Below, one piece after another: positions 25,250 to 48,000 of a DNA stretch of 64,000 nucleotides. The first letter of the stretch is position 1, and each line of letters opens with the position of its first letter. Below the pieces are notes generated by a model that worked only from the letters and a program-made list of their open reading frames with translations, was not told where the DNA came from and searched no databases. This DNA comes from Polytrichum commune (lineage: Eukaryota; Streptophyta; Polytrichopsida; Polytrichales; Polytrichaceae), in assembly GCA_950295325.1 (NCBI GenBank), contig OX485804.1, forward strand, positions 15,066,001 through 15,130,000, read 5' to 3'. Both the position numbers and the translations under genes were made by a program.

Positions 25250-28200
25250 CTCCTCCACTAGAAATGCATTCCATGATCATAATATGCAGTTACAGAAACG
25301 CAGGGATGCTATCAAACTCCTCAATCTCAGTTACTCTCCAATTCAACAATCTCCACAGAGAGTTTACCTATCTTAGTACGCCGTTTATGGCAGTTAGTGT
25401 GACATGCATAATAGTGTCACTTATCCTTTTTTGAGGCGTATGCTAGGTTACAATGACAACAAACAACCTCACCATAAATGTCACATAAAGACACTTGACA
25501 TTCAAGGGCACTCACTAATATATTTGCATGAGCATGTTCAATAGCATTATGAGGTGCATGGTTATGTTACACAATGGTTTACAAGTTGACTAAAGTGTAC
25601 ACAAATGATACTTGTCTTTAGTGTGTTCAAGAATATCTTTCTCTTGCATACTAGAATGTAAACATCTAACATTTGCCATTAGTAAGTTCAAAAATATTTT
25701 CCCCTTGCATACTAAAATGCAAGACAAACTATCATCTAATATATCTCAATGTGCTAATCGAAATATCATAATGTATATATTTTTTCACCTAAAGAAGTTT
25801 TCAATGTTGTTGAATGGAATCATATTGGCAATTAGCAAGCATGCCATTTTGAGACCTCTAGGCATCTAATTTAGGCCCTTTGCGAATAGTGTACATGACA
25901 CTACATACCATCAATGGTGTAGTGTTGTGTGTTTCGTTCTCTGTAGATATACCAAGTGAATGTAGCTCTTAACATTCAAGTGTTGAGCAAAATAACTTAT
26001 GCATTGAGTGGTAACTATGCAACGAGACCTTTGTTGAACACCATTGCGGTGTACAATGGGAATTGCAGGAAAAGTTTGATAATGGGAATATTGATATAGC
26101 TAAAAATACGTAAATAGGTACATGTTACACATTGTGAAAGTGTGTAGTGTGAATTTTGTTCGTTTGGCCAAAATCTGGCATCAAATAGACACACATACCA
26201 TAAAGACCCGAGTTGAATTTCCCTTTGTAATAGTTATGTATTACTTTTGATGTGCACATATTTCAAATTCATGTCCCTTTGTCATGAGCATTGATGTTTA
26301 AATTTATGAACTTATAAAATAGTGTCAAGTTAAAAAAAATTATCTAACCCCAAGAATCAGGGCATATGATTTTTAAGATTATGAATTTTAAATTTTAAAT
26401 ATAGCAAATAATGTAAGATTTTATTAATTTTTTTATAGAAAATCAAATCAAACATCAAACAATTCAAATTAAATTAAACATTGCATTTTTGTGAATTAGA
26501 ATATTCCACTCAAATTTGGCAATTTTGTCAATTTTAATTTGATAAAAAATATTCATGATAAAGAATGCTTTGAGAATAATTAAATAAATATTTGTATGAG
26601 AATAATGGATTTTTTAATTAATTGAATCTAAAATTAGATTATAAAGAATCATTTGAAAATAATATAAAAATTGTATGAAAATAATATTTTTTAATTAATG
26701 TAATCTTAAAATTGAGCATCAATTGTTTTTAAATAATTGAAAACAAATTTTGCATAAGTAATGGTATATATACAAACATATTCGAAATAAAAATTGTGAT
26801 CATATGATATGCAATATTTTACATGTTGAAAAGCCGCATGAATTCAACCTCGGGTGGCTTAACCTCAAAGTTTGCACGAAATTCAAAATATGCCATTTGT
26901 TTTAAACCACCCTAGTAACATAAACAATTTGTACATCCAATCATCCATTAAAACAATGCATCATCATTATAAGTGTAGAGCATTGTGAAGTCCTAGTGAT
27001 AAATAAAATTTTAAATACAAAACTCCCAAAAATTCATGCACGCAAGAATAAATTGATTACATGTGGCAACAACTTTTGAATTTTAATAGTCTTTTAGTAA
27101 TTGAAAAGCCCACATATTCCTAGCACTAAATATGATATTGCGCACATTGCATTTCCATCAATTTAACGAATATCCATCTTTGATCTCAAAATCAACATTC
27201 ATGAACTCAAAGTTCATAACAATCTTTTGCTAGATCTTCCAATGAACGATAGATAATTTGCACGAATATTTTATATCGTATGAACCCATCCGTTCATGTA
27301 ACACAACATACACAACTTGAACAAGTTCAAACACATTTTGGTGCCCATGTTTCAACATTATGTTCCTCTACCAAAGCGTTTGAATGCCAAGAGTGATTGG
27401 CATGTCGACACCCAAGAAATCAACTTCGCATTATTTTTTCTTATTCCATAAGCAAAATATGGAATCAAAGTTTTTTTTATCCTATACAAAAGCCCTTTGC
27501 ATCATTGACATGCATATAATAAGTCTCCATGTTAGTATTCGTGTCATATTGTAAACATTCTCTTTTGACATGAACATATGGGACAATTCTCATGACGTGT
27601 CTATGATGCCCTTTATTTTGTTGATGTTTCACCATGATTTGAATAATTAATGAACCCAAACGAAGTTGTTTGACACAATGCTTGCCATATGACAAGTGAA
27701 TTGGATTTGAAAAGCATCATTGCTCGCAATATATCTAGAGCAATGGATTATTTTTTACCCTTCATTGTTGACATGAGTGATATATGGGAGAAATATTTGC
27801 GATACATGTCGTTTGACTTGAAAGCTACACAAACACCCTTAAATGCTTTTATGATGCATATACATGATTTAGGCCCTATATCATTTTGGAACTAAGTGTC
27901 CCTTGAAGATTAAACAAGTTCTTAGTTGTACCTAATTATAAATTCAAAGAGTTTAGCCTCCAAGACGAAAGAATATCATTGAGTTCATAATGCGAGATTA
28001 CCCATGATTTGTTGTTTTAGTGACTGATCGCATTTTATCTAAATTAATGAATAATGAATATAATTGCTACGATCTTCAATTACTTGGGTAGAATTTTATA
28101 TGAATCACTTATAGTCTAGATAAATTCAATTCAAAGGCATTGACTTTCAACTTCATTAGTTGAAAGTCTTAATCGAACTCTCTACCACACATCTACATAA

Positions 28201-39000: not shown

Positions 39001-41561
39001 TGATCTGGTAGTTTCAAAGATTTGTTTTGTTTTACTTTACTCTCAGTTTTCTAATACCAATTTCATCTCGTACTTGAAACCTAGATCGCTAATCATTTTG
39101 CTCTCTAATACTGTTTTGAAGGGGGATGCTACCCCTATTACCAAGCCGCCACCGATGAAGGGCAATGTAAAGGATAAGAACAAAGACTTGGAAGAAGCCA
39201 AAATTAAGATTGTTATTGCAGGCAGTGGCTGTACAAGTGAGGCGCATGTACGAAATGTGAGTGCAGTTGGCCTTTTTGACATTCCTTTTCACCTACATAA
39301 TGATTTTACTTGTGTTTGGGGTCAATGGCCAGGTGACAAATTCCTAGCACAAGAACCTAGTATACTGACAGATGAAATGAATCACTGAATTTTAATGTGG
39401 GTCAATTGATATGTTGATGTTTCTATATTCATTTTGGTACTACTGAGGCCATAAACCCTTAAAGGTCTGAGAGGTCCATGCTGAGCATCAAGGTGTCATA
39501 CAGAGGGGTTTAATATTACTCGATATTTGCAGTTAAAAGTGTCAAAAGAAACCCTATGTAAATTTGATCCATTTATCTAATGGATGAGTTCAATCGGAGT
39601 GTATATGTAAAATGAATTATAGGAAGATGTGAGCTTGTATAAATTACCCAGACTCAAATACATACCACGTATATCTAATCACTATTGCCACATATGACTT
39701 TAATTTCACTCTCTTTTTAATAGGTTGTGCTAGAAATGGAATCAATATCATAGGACAAAGGGTGGCTCGAACCCAAGGCCTTAACCTGGATCCCATAGGA
39801 ACTCTCAGGTTAAGCTGCCTAAGGCCGGAAGAGTACTTGGATGGGTGACCTTCCTAGCACTTGATTTCCGGTGCAGCTAATCATCTATGGTCAAACCCAA
39901 TCATAGTAGGGTATGTAAACGGGATGTTTTCAATCAACCATGTGGGAATCTAGAGACTTGTTCTTGGGGGAAAATAGGTGCTGGCTGGCTTGTCCGCACT
40001 CATTGAAGGTGATCACCTTCAAAAGGAAGCAGTAGTCTTGGAGGCCTTTAATTCTCGTGATGCCTGTTTGGGGATTACATATAGATTTAGAAGCAACACC
40101 ATAATGCAAGCCAGTGGTAACATTGAAGTCGTTTTTCTTTCTTTCTTTCTTGCTCATGAGAACAAATCAAGTCTCATTTCAATATTTGTTGGGGGTTTGT
40201 ACAAATTGTCACGTATTTTGTATAAACTCACTCCCAGTCCTTCAAGGGTGAATTGGTTGAACGACTCTGTAGGTTCTGCGGGATATGCGCGGTGATGCAG
40301 ATATGGCCATTGAATATTTAATTGCTGAACAAAGTGGTGAACCCAGCCCTGTTCGCTCTTATGGAAGTGATTTAAGTGAATCGAGGGCCAATGGTATTCT
40401 CAATTATCCCTTGGCTTGCTATGATTTTCTTGCATGATAAAGGTAATGAATTGGTAGGTTTTAGCTAAATATCTTTCTTTGTTGGAGCAAACTTATTCCA
40501 TCGGAATAAAATTTATTGTAGTATTATTTAAAGTGGTGTTGTCATCAGGACCAAGTGAACAGATCAATCCGCTTAGGATATCTGCATTAGATGACGATGA
40601 CTCTACCATACTGCCGGCCTCTAATTCTACAAGTGAAAATGGAGGCGATCTTGGCACCAACAATCTTTCAACTGCAACTTTTGAGGTAACCTTCCAATTG
40701 GCAAATCTGAACACGTTGCATGAGACAATAATCCAAGAAGATTAACAATGTCAGTTGTGCATAGAGGATGATAGTTACAAGGCTTTCAAAGTAATGGTTT
40801 AAAATGAAATCCTTGCATCTTGAGCTCAAATATGGGTTGGAAATGGTTACTTTTTCTGACTAGGATATTAAAGATGCGATTGAGATGGTTAGCAAGTCCA
40901 AATTGAGGCCATAGCCACTTTCCTCACATTGTGATCCGTAAGCCAAGTGTGTTCATTGCATCTTAGAAATGGGGTCTGTGAATTACCGCTCTCTAATTGC
41001 TTAGGACATAACCCATAATGCGCAAATTCCATATTTGGATCCCTAAACCTTGAACTAGTGTGATTGGATATATCATAATTTTGGATTAATTCTACTGTGT
41101 TTCGCTGCATTTCTTTCAACATACAAGTACAGTCATTGGGAATTGCCTTAAATATGTAAGTGTCACCTTAGCTAAGACTTTCTTGGATGATGATGCTGAT
41201 TAAAATGGTTGTGCAACTACAGAAGGCAGCCAGGAATAAAGCATGCCCTTGTGGCTCGAAACGGAAGTACAAATCTTGTTGTGGCACATCCAAAACCAAG
41301 ACTACTCTTGCTTATGTTTCCAGGTGCATATTCCTATTTGAGCATCATTTCTAATTTCCATATCTTTGTGTACTATTTTTAGATTCAAATTGTAAATGCT
41401 GTGTTTAACACGAGTCTTGGCACACATGTAGGGCCGAGGAGACTCTTTCAAATAAATTAAGGAAACAAAACGTAAAAATTGCGAAAGGTGTTCATCCCAC
41501 AAGTGAAGTGGGGCGCAATCATCCACCTGAGGTTCTTGACATGGGGGCCCTTTGTATTTGA
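36014..41561 (+). CDS. OTU-domain deubiquitinase with SEC-C motif (OTU7-like)
   Basis: Eleven exons join in frame to 378 codons plus stop: 36014-36058, 36793-36887, 37064-37139, 37652-37801, 38145-38206, 38502-38586, 39122-39256, 40273-40393, 40549-40685, 41223-41323, 41432-41561. The OTU cysteine-protease core is intact: VTADGNCFFR carries Asp41 and catalytic Cys44, and YHDGEHYNSV carries His150. LMTPRWHIRNF and EDGTWAGHMELQA are typical of the OTUD3/OTU7 branch. A UBA-like helix region follows at ~200-245 (GCTSEAHVRNVLRDM). Near the end, ACPCGSKRKYKSCC (~309-322) is a SEC-C zinc motif. Arabidopsis has an OTU protein with the same architecture and similar length. Exon 1 (MGQKRGLKLKVYKHK) is inferred from phase, a good GT and its basic composition, and is the least certain part. 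Confidence 0.92.
36317..36696 (+). repeat. R1 repeat in intron 1 of the OTU gene
   Basis: A near full-length R1, TTAGGTAGACGTGCC at the left and CTACCTTA at the right, standing between the first and second coding exons. Confidence 0.8.
38600..39121 (+). repeat. Tandem duplication in intron 6 of the OTU gene
   Basis: Two ~260-bp units, about 38600-38855 and 38856-39121, share GATTGATA, TTTACTGTAATTTCCAC and CAATTTCATCTC. The second unit ends at the real acceptor of exon 7; the equivalent place in the first reads GTGCTCTAACAG, an acceptor-like decoy. Confidence 0.8.
39760..39877 (+). other. 5S rRNA-like sequence in intron 7 of the OTU gene
   Basis: GGATCCCAT (39788) is followed at 5S-like spacing by GGTTAAGC (39808) and GTACTTGGATGGGTGACC (39833). 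These correspond to the box A and box C regions of the plant 5S internal promoter. The 5' and 3' arms align weakly. CTTAACC (39780) pairs perfectly with GGTTAAG (39808). It is flanked by CTCTCTTTTTAATAG at 39709-39723 and GG-GTATGTAAAC at 39911, which look like splice acceptor and donor. It could be a 5S pseudogene, a SINE3-like or Cassandra-type retroelement remnant, or an exonised structure. Confidence 0.7.
40880..40925 (-). repeat. Short R1 fragment in intron 9 of the OTU gene
   Basis: GAGATGGTTAGCAAGTCC and GGCCATAGCCACTTTCCTCA match the 3' third of R1 in inverse orientation. Confidence 0.6.
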
Positions 41562-43533: not shown

Positions 43534-44975
43534 CTAAGACTTGATAGGCACGTGTAGGCATGGGGATAAGTTGGGTGTGTCCATGATTTCGAGCCACGAC
43601 AACGGCTCCTGAAACGCAAAGGCAGATTGTTGGTGCTGCGAGCTGTGGTCAAGGTAGCCAGAGTCCGCATCGATCAATGTGGGTTTAGTTAATTCGTGTG
43701 CCCCGTTAATGCTAACGTAGCTGCCTGCATTCTCCCCATTGTGATCCTGATCCCCTCCTTGACTGCACTCGCTCGACCGCGTGGCCCGGCTGCTCTCTTC
43801 CACCTCAGAGCTGCCTGGTCCAGCAGCTGGCACCTCCCACACACACATGGCGGTGGTTGTGGTGCAGGCCCTGGCTTCCTTGGTCACGGTGGAGGTGGCA
43901 GCCTGCTCTTGATCAGGTGTGGACCCGGTCCCGGGCTGGCACCTATCTGTAGCACCCGTAGGGGTCAGTGTCTTTAGAGCTTGGTGTGGAGTTGCTAAGA
44001 CATTTTAAAGCAGAAAGTCACTTGTGGACTCAGTTCTCGGTCTAACCTCGCACAGTCAACGAATATCCTTCAAAGAAAGTATCCTGTCAGTGAGATGTCG
44101 CATCGTGCTTTTCGTATTCAATACATAGTTTGGGAGTCCGAGAATACATACAGAACTGTTCCAACACAATTTTCATGTTGTTCAGGGGTCCACAACACTT
44201 CTACACATGGCTTAGTAATGTTATGAACATTGTTTTGTAGTTTTTGTCGCATTGTAAAGAATTTGTAAGATAAAGAAATCCTAAGAAATGTTTCTAGGGT
44301 CTCTACGTTGGTACACATGCTTGCTTCAGAGGGAGAAAGATTTTTTAATTTTTTAAAAATAAAATATTTGAAAGTGTTAAATTACCTTTTATAATTCATC
44401 CATAAATGCCATCAGTGGGTTCCTCTCAATGTCCCCTCTCTCTCCAAGTATGTTGCTATGCCTTTTTGTGTTCTAACACATCGTCTATTCAATAGAAGCA
44501 TTATGGTAAACATGCCTCATTTGGTTACTTATCTTAACTGGACCACTATATTTGACTGGTGCATGGTTAAGTGTGGATCTCAAAACGAACACCAAAAAAC
44601 ATGTGCTTAAAAGAGATTGGACCGTGTGCTCAAAATTTGTTAACCATTATGGATTATGAACTCAATAGTCATCATAATTGGGGGACCCTACTTAGTTTTT
44701 TTATGACTCTGACAACTTTTGACTATGAACATCAATGCAGTAACACATGAAATTTGAAAAAATCTCTGAACTGTTGGTAAAATCTTACATCACATTTGCA
44801 GACCCAAGAAAATTCCTAACTCTGAAAGCCAAGTTGAGAATCATGGCAAACAGAAAAAAACTAACCATTAAAGACAAAGTTTGCCGTAGAAGTGATGTAC
44901 AGAGAGTTGATCTAAATTGGAGAGTTGCCCCCCTGAGTCTCACCTTTTTGCAAATCAATGGGAGCAGCAGCTGGA

Positions 44976-45007
<32 letters not shown>

Positions 45008-48000
45008 ATGGTGAGCTGCGGCTCGTGATCTGCTCTTGCGTTGGGATGTGCTGGAGCATGTGTGCTTCCCAACATAGGTCACTTCATACATGGTCGGGTC
45101 TTTGTCGGTGGGCTGAACCATTTTCTTCGCCTTGCACTCCTTGGCGCTGCATTTGTAGTATCCTCTGCATTGCAGGAAATAACAATGTTGGTTGGAGGTT
45201 AGTGAGCCTAAAAAGTGCACTTTTAGCTCTACATCCGCTCCTCCTAGGGTATGTAACACGCGAATAGTACATGATGATTAGCAAATCCAAATTGAGGCAT
45301 ACCCATCTTCCACGATTTTCAAACCTCCTATCAATATCTTACTCAGTATCAAAGTGAAGATACTTTTTCTTCCTAATTGATCATATGGGTTCTCCCAATT
45401 TGTTGAAGATTGAATCTAGTATAGTTAACAAATTTTGAACATGTGGTCTAATCTCTTTTCAACACATATTTTTGTAATATTTTTTTTGAATCCACACCTA
45501 ATCACACGCCACTCATATACATGTGTGTGTTTAAGATAAGTAAGAGCTAGCATTATGCTTGTCCCATGCCTGCTTACTTTGGAGGTATGTGGTCCTTTCA
45601 CGCGGTTGCTCTTTTTTACTAGACACTCATATTTGAGTAGTATGTATATGGTAAGATTGGTACTCAAGAACTAACACCAAAAAGATGTATGATACAATGA
45701 GATTGAATTGTATCAGAATTTAAACGCCATTCTAGATCCAATAGTAAACACACTTGAGAAGACCTATACGATCTTTCAAGAAAGAGAAAGATCCTTTGTT
45801 ATAACCTCTTATAATTTTTGCATCTGAGCTTGGATTGTGATGAAACTTGAAATGATTAAATTTGAGAATTTGCAATTGTGAAGTGGATATGAGAACTCCC
45901 ACTGCCATCCAGGGGCCAAAATTCTCTGTGAACTTGAGTGTATGCCCACAATAGGGCCACTACCCTTAGTTTTGCGTACACCAAAGACACAACCAAAATG
46001 AGCCCACCAGTCCAACTCCATTGTCACCCAGTCGATAAGGTGGAGTGTTATTTCCTATGGCCGATACGAATAACCCCAAATCCCCAAATCCCAAATCCCC
46101 AAAAATATGGCAAAAGAATGCAATTAATCGTCTCAGACATCCTAGAGATTCGACAGATGATAGACCTGACTTGGCAAAGTTGAACAGGCATGTTTGACAT
46201 TTCAAACTGAACCAGGAAATCCAACTCATCATGCAGCATGGTATGATTCCGGCTCAATGAAACCGTACTAGGCATCATAGTTTGGTTTGCTTTAATACCT
46301 GCAGAAAGTTGAATTTTGTATAGCTTTATTGCCGTATTTCTTCCAGCCTCGATGACCGTCATCGGGAATACCTTTCTTCGAATCGCTTCCCGGTTTCAGC
46401 TCCTGAAAGACCACCACTATTTTTGCATCTGGCTCGCCACTTGCTTCCCTGAGATTCAAATTACAAAAGAATCACACTCATCAGGATGACCTAATTGTAT
46501 ACTGCTTTAGCCCTCTTCAGGAAATCCCAAGTAAGTCGTATAAACAGGTTGCCACTACTTGAATCTGTGGTTTAGAGATTGGTTGTGGATCTACAATACT
46601 GGCCCACTTATGATCCTTTGAGTAGAAAATGGCCTACTAATCTCCCAAATCCCAGCAATCAATTTCCACATAGAATAACTCAATAATATAATATTCTACG
46701 AGAATTCATAAGCCATTGGCCTCCTGGAAAGGACAGAATGGGAGGTATAATCACCTCCTGCATTGACAATCTGACCCACACCTATCCAACCTGTCAGTTT
46801 CCATGTGCAATCTTTTCTTTTACTAAAAAGGATTTGTCCTGCACTGGGGGTAGTCGTGAGAGAACATGTTTCTCAGAAATATCGGAATATACTACTTGGG
46901 TTGGAGCATTCTTACTGTAACTATATCATTGTCCAGGCACGGCACCCTGAAATTAAACATTTTGGGCCAACGCCAAAACATGCCACATCTCGTGGCAAAG
47001 ATCTCCTGCAATGCTTCCCGATTGCAGGTATATCTATACACCAAGCAAACATGGGTCTAAACGACACGACCCACAAGTTATGACCATTTTGATACAAATT
47101 TGTCCCTTGCAAGCATGTCTGATTGACACGATGCCATTTTGGACCGTTTGCAAAGAACCATAACCGTAACCAAAGATTCGGTGGGTTGGTATTTCCAAAA
47201 AAAACATGGGTCCTAAATGACATGACCTTGAACAAGTTATCACTGTTTCGACATAAATGTGTCCCTTGTGAGCCAATATGAGTGGCACGATGTCATTTTA
47301 GTCCCTATGTGGGGAATCACAGTTGGAACCAATAATTGAGTGGGTTGGTGTTTCAATACATGTCATAAGAGGCAAACATGACGTGGTCCAAAACAAATTG
47401 TTGACACAAACGTGTTCTTTGTGAGCCAATCTAAGTGACATGACATTGTTATGATCATTTTGGATTGTTTGCAAGAAATCATATGTTACCAAGAATTGAG
47501 TGGGTTAGTATTTCAATACATGGATCAATAAATGACACAAACCAAAACAAGTTATTGAAACAAATGTGTCCCTTGCGAGCCGGTTTGAATGAAGTGATGT
47601 CATTTTGGTTGTTGTGGTTTGTTCACAAGGAATCATCACTGTAACCAAAGATTGAGAGGGTCGATGTTTTAGTGAATGAATCTAAATGATAGAACCCAGA
47701 ACAAGTTACTGACACAAACGTGTCCCTTGTGAGTTGGTTTGAGTGACATGATGACATTTTAGTCATTTTGATTCATTTGCAAGAAATCAAAACTGCAAAA
47801 AAATGTTGAGTGAGTACTAGTAGGATGGTGTTTTAGTACCTATCACGTTTCACGCCGGTTCTTGGTCGGATGGAACCGCGACTCCCTACCTTGGTGACGT
47901 AACTTTGATCTTCATTGTCCAGGTCTTTCAAGTCGCTGCCGTCGACATTAATATTTTTTTGACACGACGACGAGCTTTGATGTTGGTCAAGTGCAGTAAT

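Follow-up and report, generated by a model that had tools for sequence, protein, structure and literature searches.

The 5S rRNA-like sequence within intron 7 of an OTU7-like gene is very probably the 5S-derived head of an old insertion from a high-copy SINE family, whose 3′ end is shared by LINE-B, a large LINE in the same genome. The window, which is the whole 64-kb stretch of DNA that was analysed (C2:15066001-15130000), comes from a 408-Mb assembly, with 406.07 of its 407.81 Mb on seven contigs. A sequence-only reading had likened the feature to the P5SM exon and had offered a 5S-derived SINE3-type or Cassandra element as the simpler explanation; the genome bears out the SINE3-type retroelement, given the many copies, fixed borders, 5S head, simple tail and LINE-like 3′ end. 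The copies, their borders, target-site duplications detected as a set, 5′ truncation and the LINE-like end therefore identify a 5S-headed SINE (SINE3 class) rather than a Cassandra LTR or a P5SM exon.

The intron 7 copy and its relatives

Based on the sequence and its reading frames, intron 7 (39257-40272, + strand) lies between exons 7 and 8 in phase 0, with exon 7 ending at 39256, exon 8 starting at 40273, and the protein junction reading SEAHVRN followed by VLRDMRGDADMAIEYLI. We take the host-gene exons to resemble Arabidopsis OTU7 and name the gene on that assumption. An exon piece of the gene (41223-41324, +) encodes a SEC-C motif (Pfam PF02810, 7.6e-8), while Pfam matched none of three further short pieces.

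The alignment of relatives defines shared borders for a full-length copy of ~394 bp with its tail, on the gene strand (39760-40153, +), and a SINE profile matches the window at 39759-40132 with 375 bits. The copy comprises a 5S rRNA-derived head (39760-39880, +), a body common to the relatives (39881-40097, +), a LINE-like 3′ end (40098-40132, +) and a (TTTC)n tail (40133-40153, +), the last evident from the sequence and from the tails of relatives. The 3′ end, recognised through the similarity of the family end to LINE-B 3′ ends, is decayed in the intron 7 copy; its family form is AATTCACGCCGGT...GAGTCGTC. By eye, the element is flanked by decayed candidate target-site duplications, TCATAGGACAAA on the left (39748-39759, +) and TCATGAGAACAAA on the right (40154-40166, +), which are unsupported for the intron 7 copy alone.

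A genome search with 39700-39960 gave 41 matches scored among 1551 first-look candidates, the window itself included. The 40 others were 79-86% identical, and 37 of them start at query positions 52-63, which corresponds to the 5S start; a search with 39905-40160 likewise gave 40 matches scored among 1097 candidates. Few-mismatch patterns recovered 318 heads, 178 3′ ends and 395 longer 3′ ends from the genome (0 for each reversed control), and hundreds of relatives are dispersed across the assembly. Aligned copies share sequence from GGGTGGCTYGAACCC, at the 5S start, through AGTCGTCTTTCTTTC, and their flanks appear unrelated. Full copies lie ~15% away from the family majority (27 copies), indicating that the family is old. 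Elsewhere in the window, 26841-26912 (-) weakly matches the head part of the SINE profile, at 18.6 bits (E 9.6e-6), and is perhaps an old fragment.

Many genomic copies with target-site duplications, together with absent junction reads, had been named beforehand as the mark of a plain retroelement remnant; the many copies were found, and the duplications are present in the set, though not demonstrable for the intron 7 copy itself. We compared the upstream 16-20 nt of each copy with its own and with other copies' downstream flanks. Over 19 of 19 copies tested, the own-flank score was 6.87, against 4.95 when permuted (p = 5e-5, the floor of 20,000 permutations, in four settings), and the duplications are clear in the single copies L009, L005 and L024. 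For the intron 7 copy, the duplication was not significant; the script picked another alignment, whose score was reached by 22% of cross pairs. Truncation was assessed on 40 loci anchored at the 3′ end, a non-random sample drawn from the top of mismatch-sorted lists: 16 are 5′-truncated, starting 50-356 positions in, and the other 24, some of them gapped or carrying insertions, begin at most 13 positions from the 5′ end. When the upstream letters of nine truncated loci were compared, the only recurrent pieces were those of the SINE itself. Among 11 head-anchored loci (L002-L012), the 3′ half is missing in one (L003).

The 5S-like stretch reported for intron 7 proved real, yet weak for a single copy, with an Infernal match to RF00001 at 39761-39882 (+; 27.6 bits, E 0.003 for 1.2 kb searched). 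A whole-window Rfam scan at the gathering level listed nothing, as this score falls below the gathering score of 38. The head shows ~82% identity over 66 nt to the 5S genes of the same genome, with a range of 80-83% over 63-69 nt against intact genes. Genome-wide, RF00001 matches reach 109.6 bits, with 29 of the 33 listed matches above the cut-off; one of the four listed below it, C1:68696724 (34.3 bits), is a copy of the SINE, so the 5S likeness is a property of the family. In the opposite direction, a profile built from 19 SINE copies (the intron 7 copy included) finds intact 5S genes in all eight loci fetched (L013-L020), with a best match per locus of E 1e-14 to 1e-16. The support for a 5S origin is stronger at the level of the family than for the single copy, and the head would then supply an internal promoter of the Pol III type.

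As for the surroundings of the intact 5S genes, 18S, 5.8S and 28S rRNA were not found in six of these loci with 1.5-kb flanks. At L018, two intact 5S genes are inverted relative to each other at a spacing of 1.2 kb (1501-1619, -, and 2700-2818, +). We also noted snoRNA matches no more than 1.5 kb from intact 5S genes, namely snoR31/Z110/Z27 at L013:1993-2085 (-) and Z159/U59 at L014:2222-2311 (-).

The 3′ end and the LINE partner

The longest reading frame found in LINE-B spans 2372 aa. Pfam detected an Exo_endo_phos_2 domain (APE-type endonuclease, 1.8e-7), RVT_1 (6.8e-33) and RNase_H (6e-15) in one copy examined, and three other copies are interrupted after the RT. In RandI/Dualen LINEs, a single long ORF encodes both an APE-type and a restriction-like endonuclease, and this clade is a candidate placement for LINE-B, which we regard as a lead. 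On C5, LINE-B occurs with one very long ORF (L106:586-4101, L098:2-3499). A weak likeness to PCIF1_WW lies between the RT and RNase H (1.6e-6, 28.3 bits; curated cut-off 31.1), and Cys/His and RPD..E-like motifs can be seen by eye in the C-terminal part, where Pfam had no match.

At its 3′ end, LINE-B has a conserved hairpin with a (TTTTC)n run behind it, or (TTTC)n in L114 (seen in L102-L105 and L108-L115), and the SINE family end, AATTCACGCCGGT...GAGTCGTC-TTTC, matches this end at a similar distance from the tail. This shared end occurs in 12 of 13 LINE-B copies, 11 of them located by script, and nine of these 11 score at least 17. The mean score of the SINE end against the 11 LINE-B ends is 19.6; the maximum over 5000 letter shuffles was 18.4, so that 0 of 5000 reach the mean, and 240 other SINE windows compared with the LINE-B ends gave at most 14.0. 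The 11 ends are not independent, as L103, L111 and L113 are 97-99% alike. Taken singly, the score of the L105 end was equalled by none of 5000 shuffles, that of L102 by 8 and that of L103 by 13; four of 988 LINE-body windows score at least 20. The ends of L108 and L109 (11, 12) and L104 (12) scored like chance, and L107 gave no end. At one pair of the 3′ hairpin, 50 sequences show 25 G-C, 16 G-T, 5 A-T and 4 other combinations; since both sites are CpG in the family, this covariation is no proof of the hairpin. From this agreement of the 3′ ends, LINE-B is the probable partner of the SINE.

Other candidate partners were tried and rejected. The 18 zf-RVT LINE loci of L1 type that were examined lack the SINE end at the point where their own shared sequence stops; L073 carries SINE fragments 3.6 kb beyond the shared end of the LINE, and L062 carries a head fragment. 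A poly(A) L1 group (four loci) scored 9-12, like chance. Upstream of the 3′ matches in L051-L055, we found no LINE reading frame among ORFs >90 aa, and these loci hold only SINE pieces, mostly short ends.

We suggest that Pol III would transcribe the SINE from its 5S-type internal promoter and that the LINE reverse transcriptase, probably that of LINE-B, would recognise the hairpin and (CTTT)n at the 3′ end of the SINE RNA. Priming at a nicked target would leave a short target-site duplication, and the 5′ end would often be lost. One copy appears to have inserted in sense orientation into intron 7 of the OTU7-like gene and then decayed; it is probably removed with the intron by splicing, perhaps with low-level accidental exonisation, and its presence in the gene is likely neutral.

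Splicing, folding and alternative explanations

The coordinates of the candidate exon in the sequence-only reading are exact: CTCTCTTTTTAATAG ends at 39723, the donor GT stands at 39911, and the interval between them (39724-39910, +) is 187 nt long. It comprises 36 nt of older intron, the candidate duplication included, and the first 151 nt of the SINE. The frame does stop after nine codons, reading VVLEMESIS and then TAG at 39751-39753. This TAG precedes the 5S-like part and belongs to sequence that was there before the insertion, as does the acceptor. In a rough scoring based on assumed site frequencies for plants, the proposed donor and acceptor reached 4.46 and 3.98, compared to 2.14 and 1.38 for the neighbouring real donor and acceptor. 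On the + strand of the window, 26 of 3536 GT and 49 of 3716 AG sites are equally good, and the same strand has five pairs of this quality spaced 50-300 nt apart, including one in intron 7. The donor, GTATGT, is private to the intron 7 copy and occurs in 0 of 27 aligned relatives, of which two (L083, L089) lack that place.

The predicted fold of the intron 7 head is better than expected from shuffled sequence (z -2.61; 1 of 200 shuffles equally good). The CTTAACC/GGTTAAG stem of the earlier reading does pair in this predicted fold, but no consensus fold of note emerged over 24 heads (RNAalifold: 5 pairs, -0.55 kcal/mol, on the window copy plus 23 of the 27 full copies, with L026, L029, L077 and L085 excluded). 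The minimum-energy fold is not the 5S fold in the intron 7 copy, nor in two relatives. Complementarity of the 5S ends, GGGTG with CACCC, is present in the family majority letters and lost, by eye, in the intron 7 copy.

We also compared the rate of change in head and body. An earlier figure (9/121 vs 40/252) was set aside as biased, its comparison copies having mostly been picked by head likeness, and the comparison was therefore redone with copies picked by their 3′ part (27 full copies from 49 loci, with 22 truncated, split or partial loci excluded). The intron 7 copy shows 10 changes over 117 positions of the head and 37 over 247 of the body (Fisher p 0.096), the lowest head/body ratio of the 28 copies. 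Of the observations made, this difference speaks most for constraint on the head, though it is not significant. Within the body, a TTTT run lies in a well-kept stretch at 39923-39937, and at the same place in relatives (mean agreement 0.86); the run could be a candidate weak Pol III terminator.

Since the proposed splice sites score well, accidental exonisation of the SINE is possible, with a cryptic 187-nt poison exon entering part of the transcripts and sending them to decay, by accident and not by regulation; this would add to the SINE reading. We consider it unlikely, as the advantage of the proposed sites over the neighbouring real ones comes from a rough scoring with assumed frequencies, the stop belongs to sequence older than the SINE, and no aligned relative carries the donor. 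A regulated switch is far less probable still. P5SM is a 5S-like exon in plant TFIIIA genes, and the intron 7 feature recalls it in its 5S-like stretch, splice-like borders and a frame that stops; by analogy, the 5S-like exon would bind ribosomal protein or TFIIIA and control productive splicing of the deubiquitinase mRNA. The less-changed head and the fold that surpasses shuffles would also fit such a switch. However, the well-kept head is to be expected in a copy singled out for its 5S look, and the 5S part belongs to a repeat family in which another copy scores higher (34.3 vs 27.6 bits). The donor is private to one copy, the stop does not come from the 5S part, and the predicted folds are not 5S-like, with no conserved fold across the heads. 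Unlike P5SM, moreover, the element is repeat-derived and lies in another gene, one with a SEC-C motif and exons that we take to be OTU7-like. The proposed 5S-linked switch is thus unsupported.

A Cassandra-type TRIM or solo LTR, with the 5S sequence inside the LTR, would also place a 5S-like core and 5S-derived promoter in a plant mobile element. Cassandra is built of LTRs with a primer-binding site and the 5S within the LTR, and none of these features was seen in the intron 7 element. Its relatives share nothing upstream of the 5S start, where an LTR part would lie, and the primer-binding site TGGTATCAGAGC is absent from 39257-40272 at up to two mismatches; TGGTATCAGAGC matches in the window number five, with a chance mean of 4.61. 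A simple-repeat tail, 5′ truncation and a LINE-like 3′ end further argue against a Cassandra origin, which we judge very improbable. Across the genome, exact matches to the 12-base primer-binding site number 563 + 564 (control, 11 + 10), in keeping with LTR elements in general. Lastly, a lone 5S pseudogene would agree with the weak Rfam score of the intron 7 copy, but its relatives share ~250 nt more and one common 3′ end, making this the least probable of the explanations considered.

Comparison with known SINEs

The 5S-headed SINE of intron 7 most resembles the SINE3 class (animal SINE3, AmnSINE1 and HaSE3), with which it shares a 5S head followed by an unrelated body, a LINE-like 3′ end, a simple tail and target-site duplications. 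It differs from animal SINE3 in that its head resembles this plant's own 5S, its tail is (TTTC)n and, as far as known and compared by description, its body is different. 5S-related SINEs have reportedly also been found in Aspergillus fumigatus. In the excerpted text of Kojima 2024, SINE3 is the class of SINEs with 5S promoters, which arose several times, and the examples given there come from animals (PMC10886601). The vertebrate 5S SINEs pair with CR1-type or RSg-1 LINEs in the excerpted text of PMC3747384, and not with a LINE such as LINE-B, the probable partner here.

Plant SINEs such as Au, p-SINE, TS and ZmSINE are likewise short and of Pol III type, and Au and p-SINE end in T. The head sets the present family apart: among the plant families whose origin is stated in the excerpts of PMC3747384, it is tRNA-derived, as for two maize/sorghum SINEs and three Arabidopsis families, and here it is derived from 5S rRNA. 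In the same excerpts, the tally of Ohshima 2013 for flowering plants is three SINE/LINE pairs, and the only listed pair with a (CTTT)n end is Chlamydomonas SINEX-2_CR with its partner RandI-2 (PMC3747384). The present family resembles SINEX-2_CR, as described in that excerpt, in its (CTTT)n 3′ repeat and LINE-shared 3′ end, and differs in its 5S head, the two being compared by description only (PMC3747384). Among open-access papers, judged by title and the start of the abstract, we found no 5S-derived plant SINE; Repbase lay outside this search, and a described family may exist.

Among land plants there may be a lineage of 5S-headed SINEs that arose from a host-type 5S gene and was mobilised by a LINE of RandI/Dualen-like type, which would recognise the 3′ hairpin together with the (CTTT)n end; such a lineage may offer a plant example of the proposed source of the Cassandra 5S; we put this forward tentatively, as a possibility about which we remain somewhat more doubtful than confident. 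The excerpted text of PMC10886601 recounts a proposal that Cassandra arose by insertion of a SINE3 into an LTR, for which the present family would provide a plant sequence for testing. Maiwald 2024 suggests instead, in the part of the article excerpted, that the Cassandra 5S was taken from nearby 5S arrays, and cites animal SINEs to illustrate new genic promoters (PMC10853983). More broadly, a 5S-headed plant SINE widens the picture of tRNA-headed SINEs in plants and 5S SINEs in animals, and the probable SINE/LINE pair would add to the three counted for flowering plants in the excerpt of PMC3747384.

As a feature of the gene, an old SINE in an intron is ordinary, and the repeat family is of moderate interest. 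For the OTU7-like gene itself, the insertion has little consequence unless exonisation is shown. Elsewhere in the window, an open frame at 44912-45277 (-) resembles, by eye, part of a WRKY domain.
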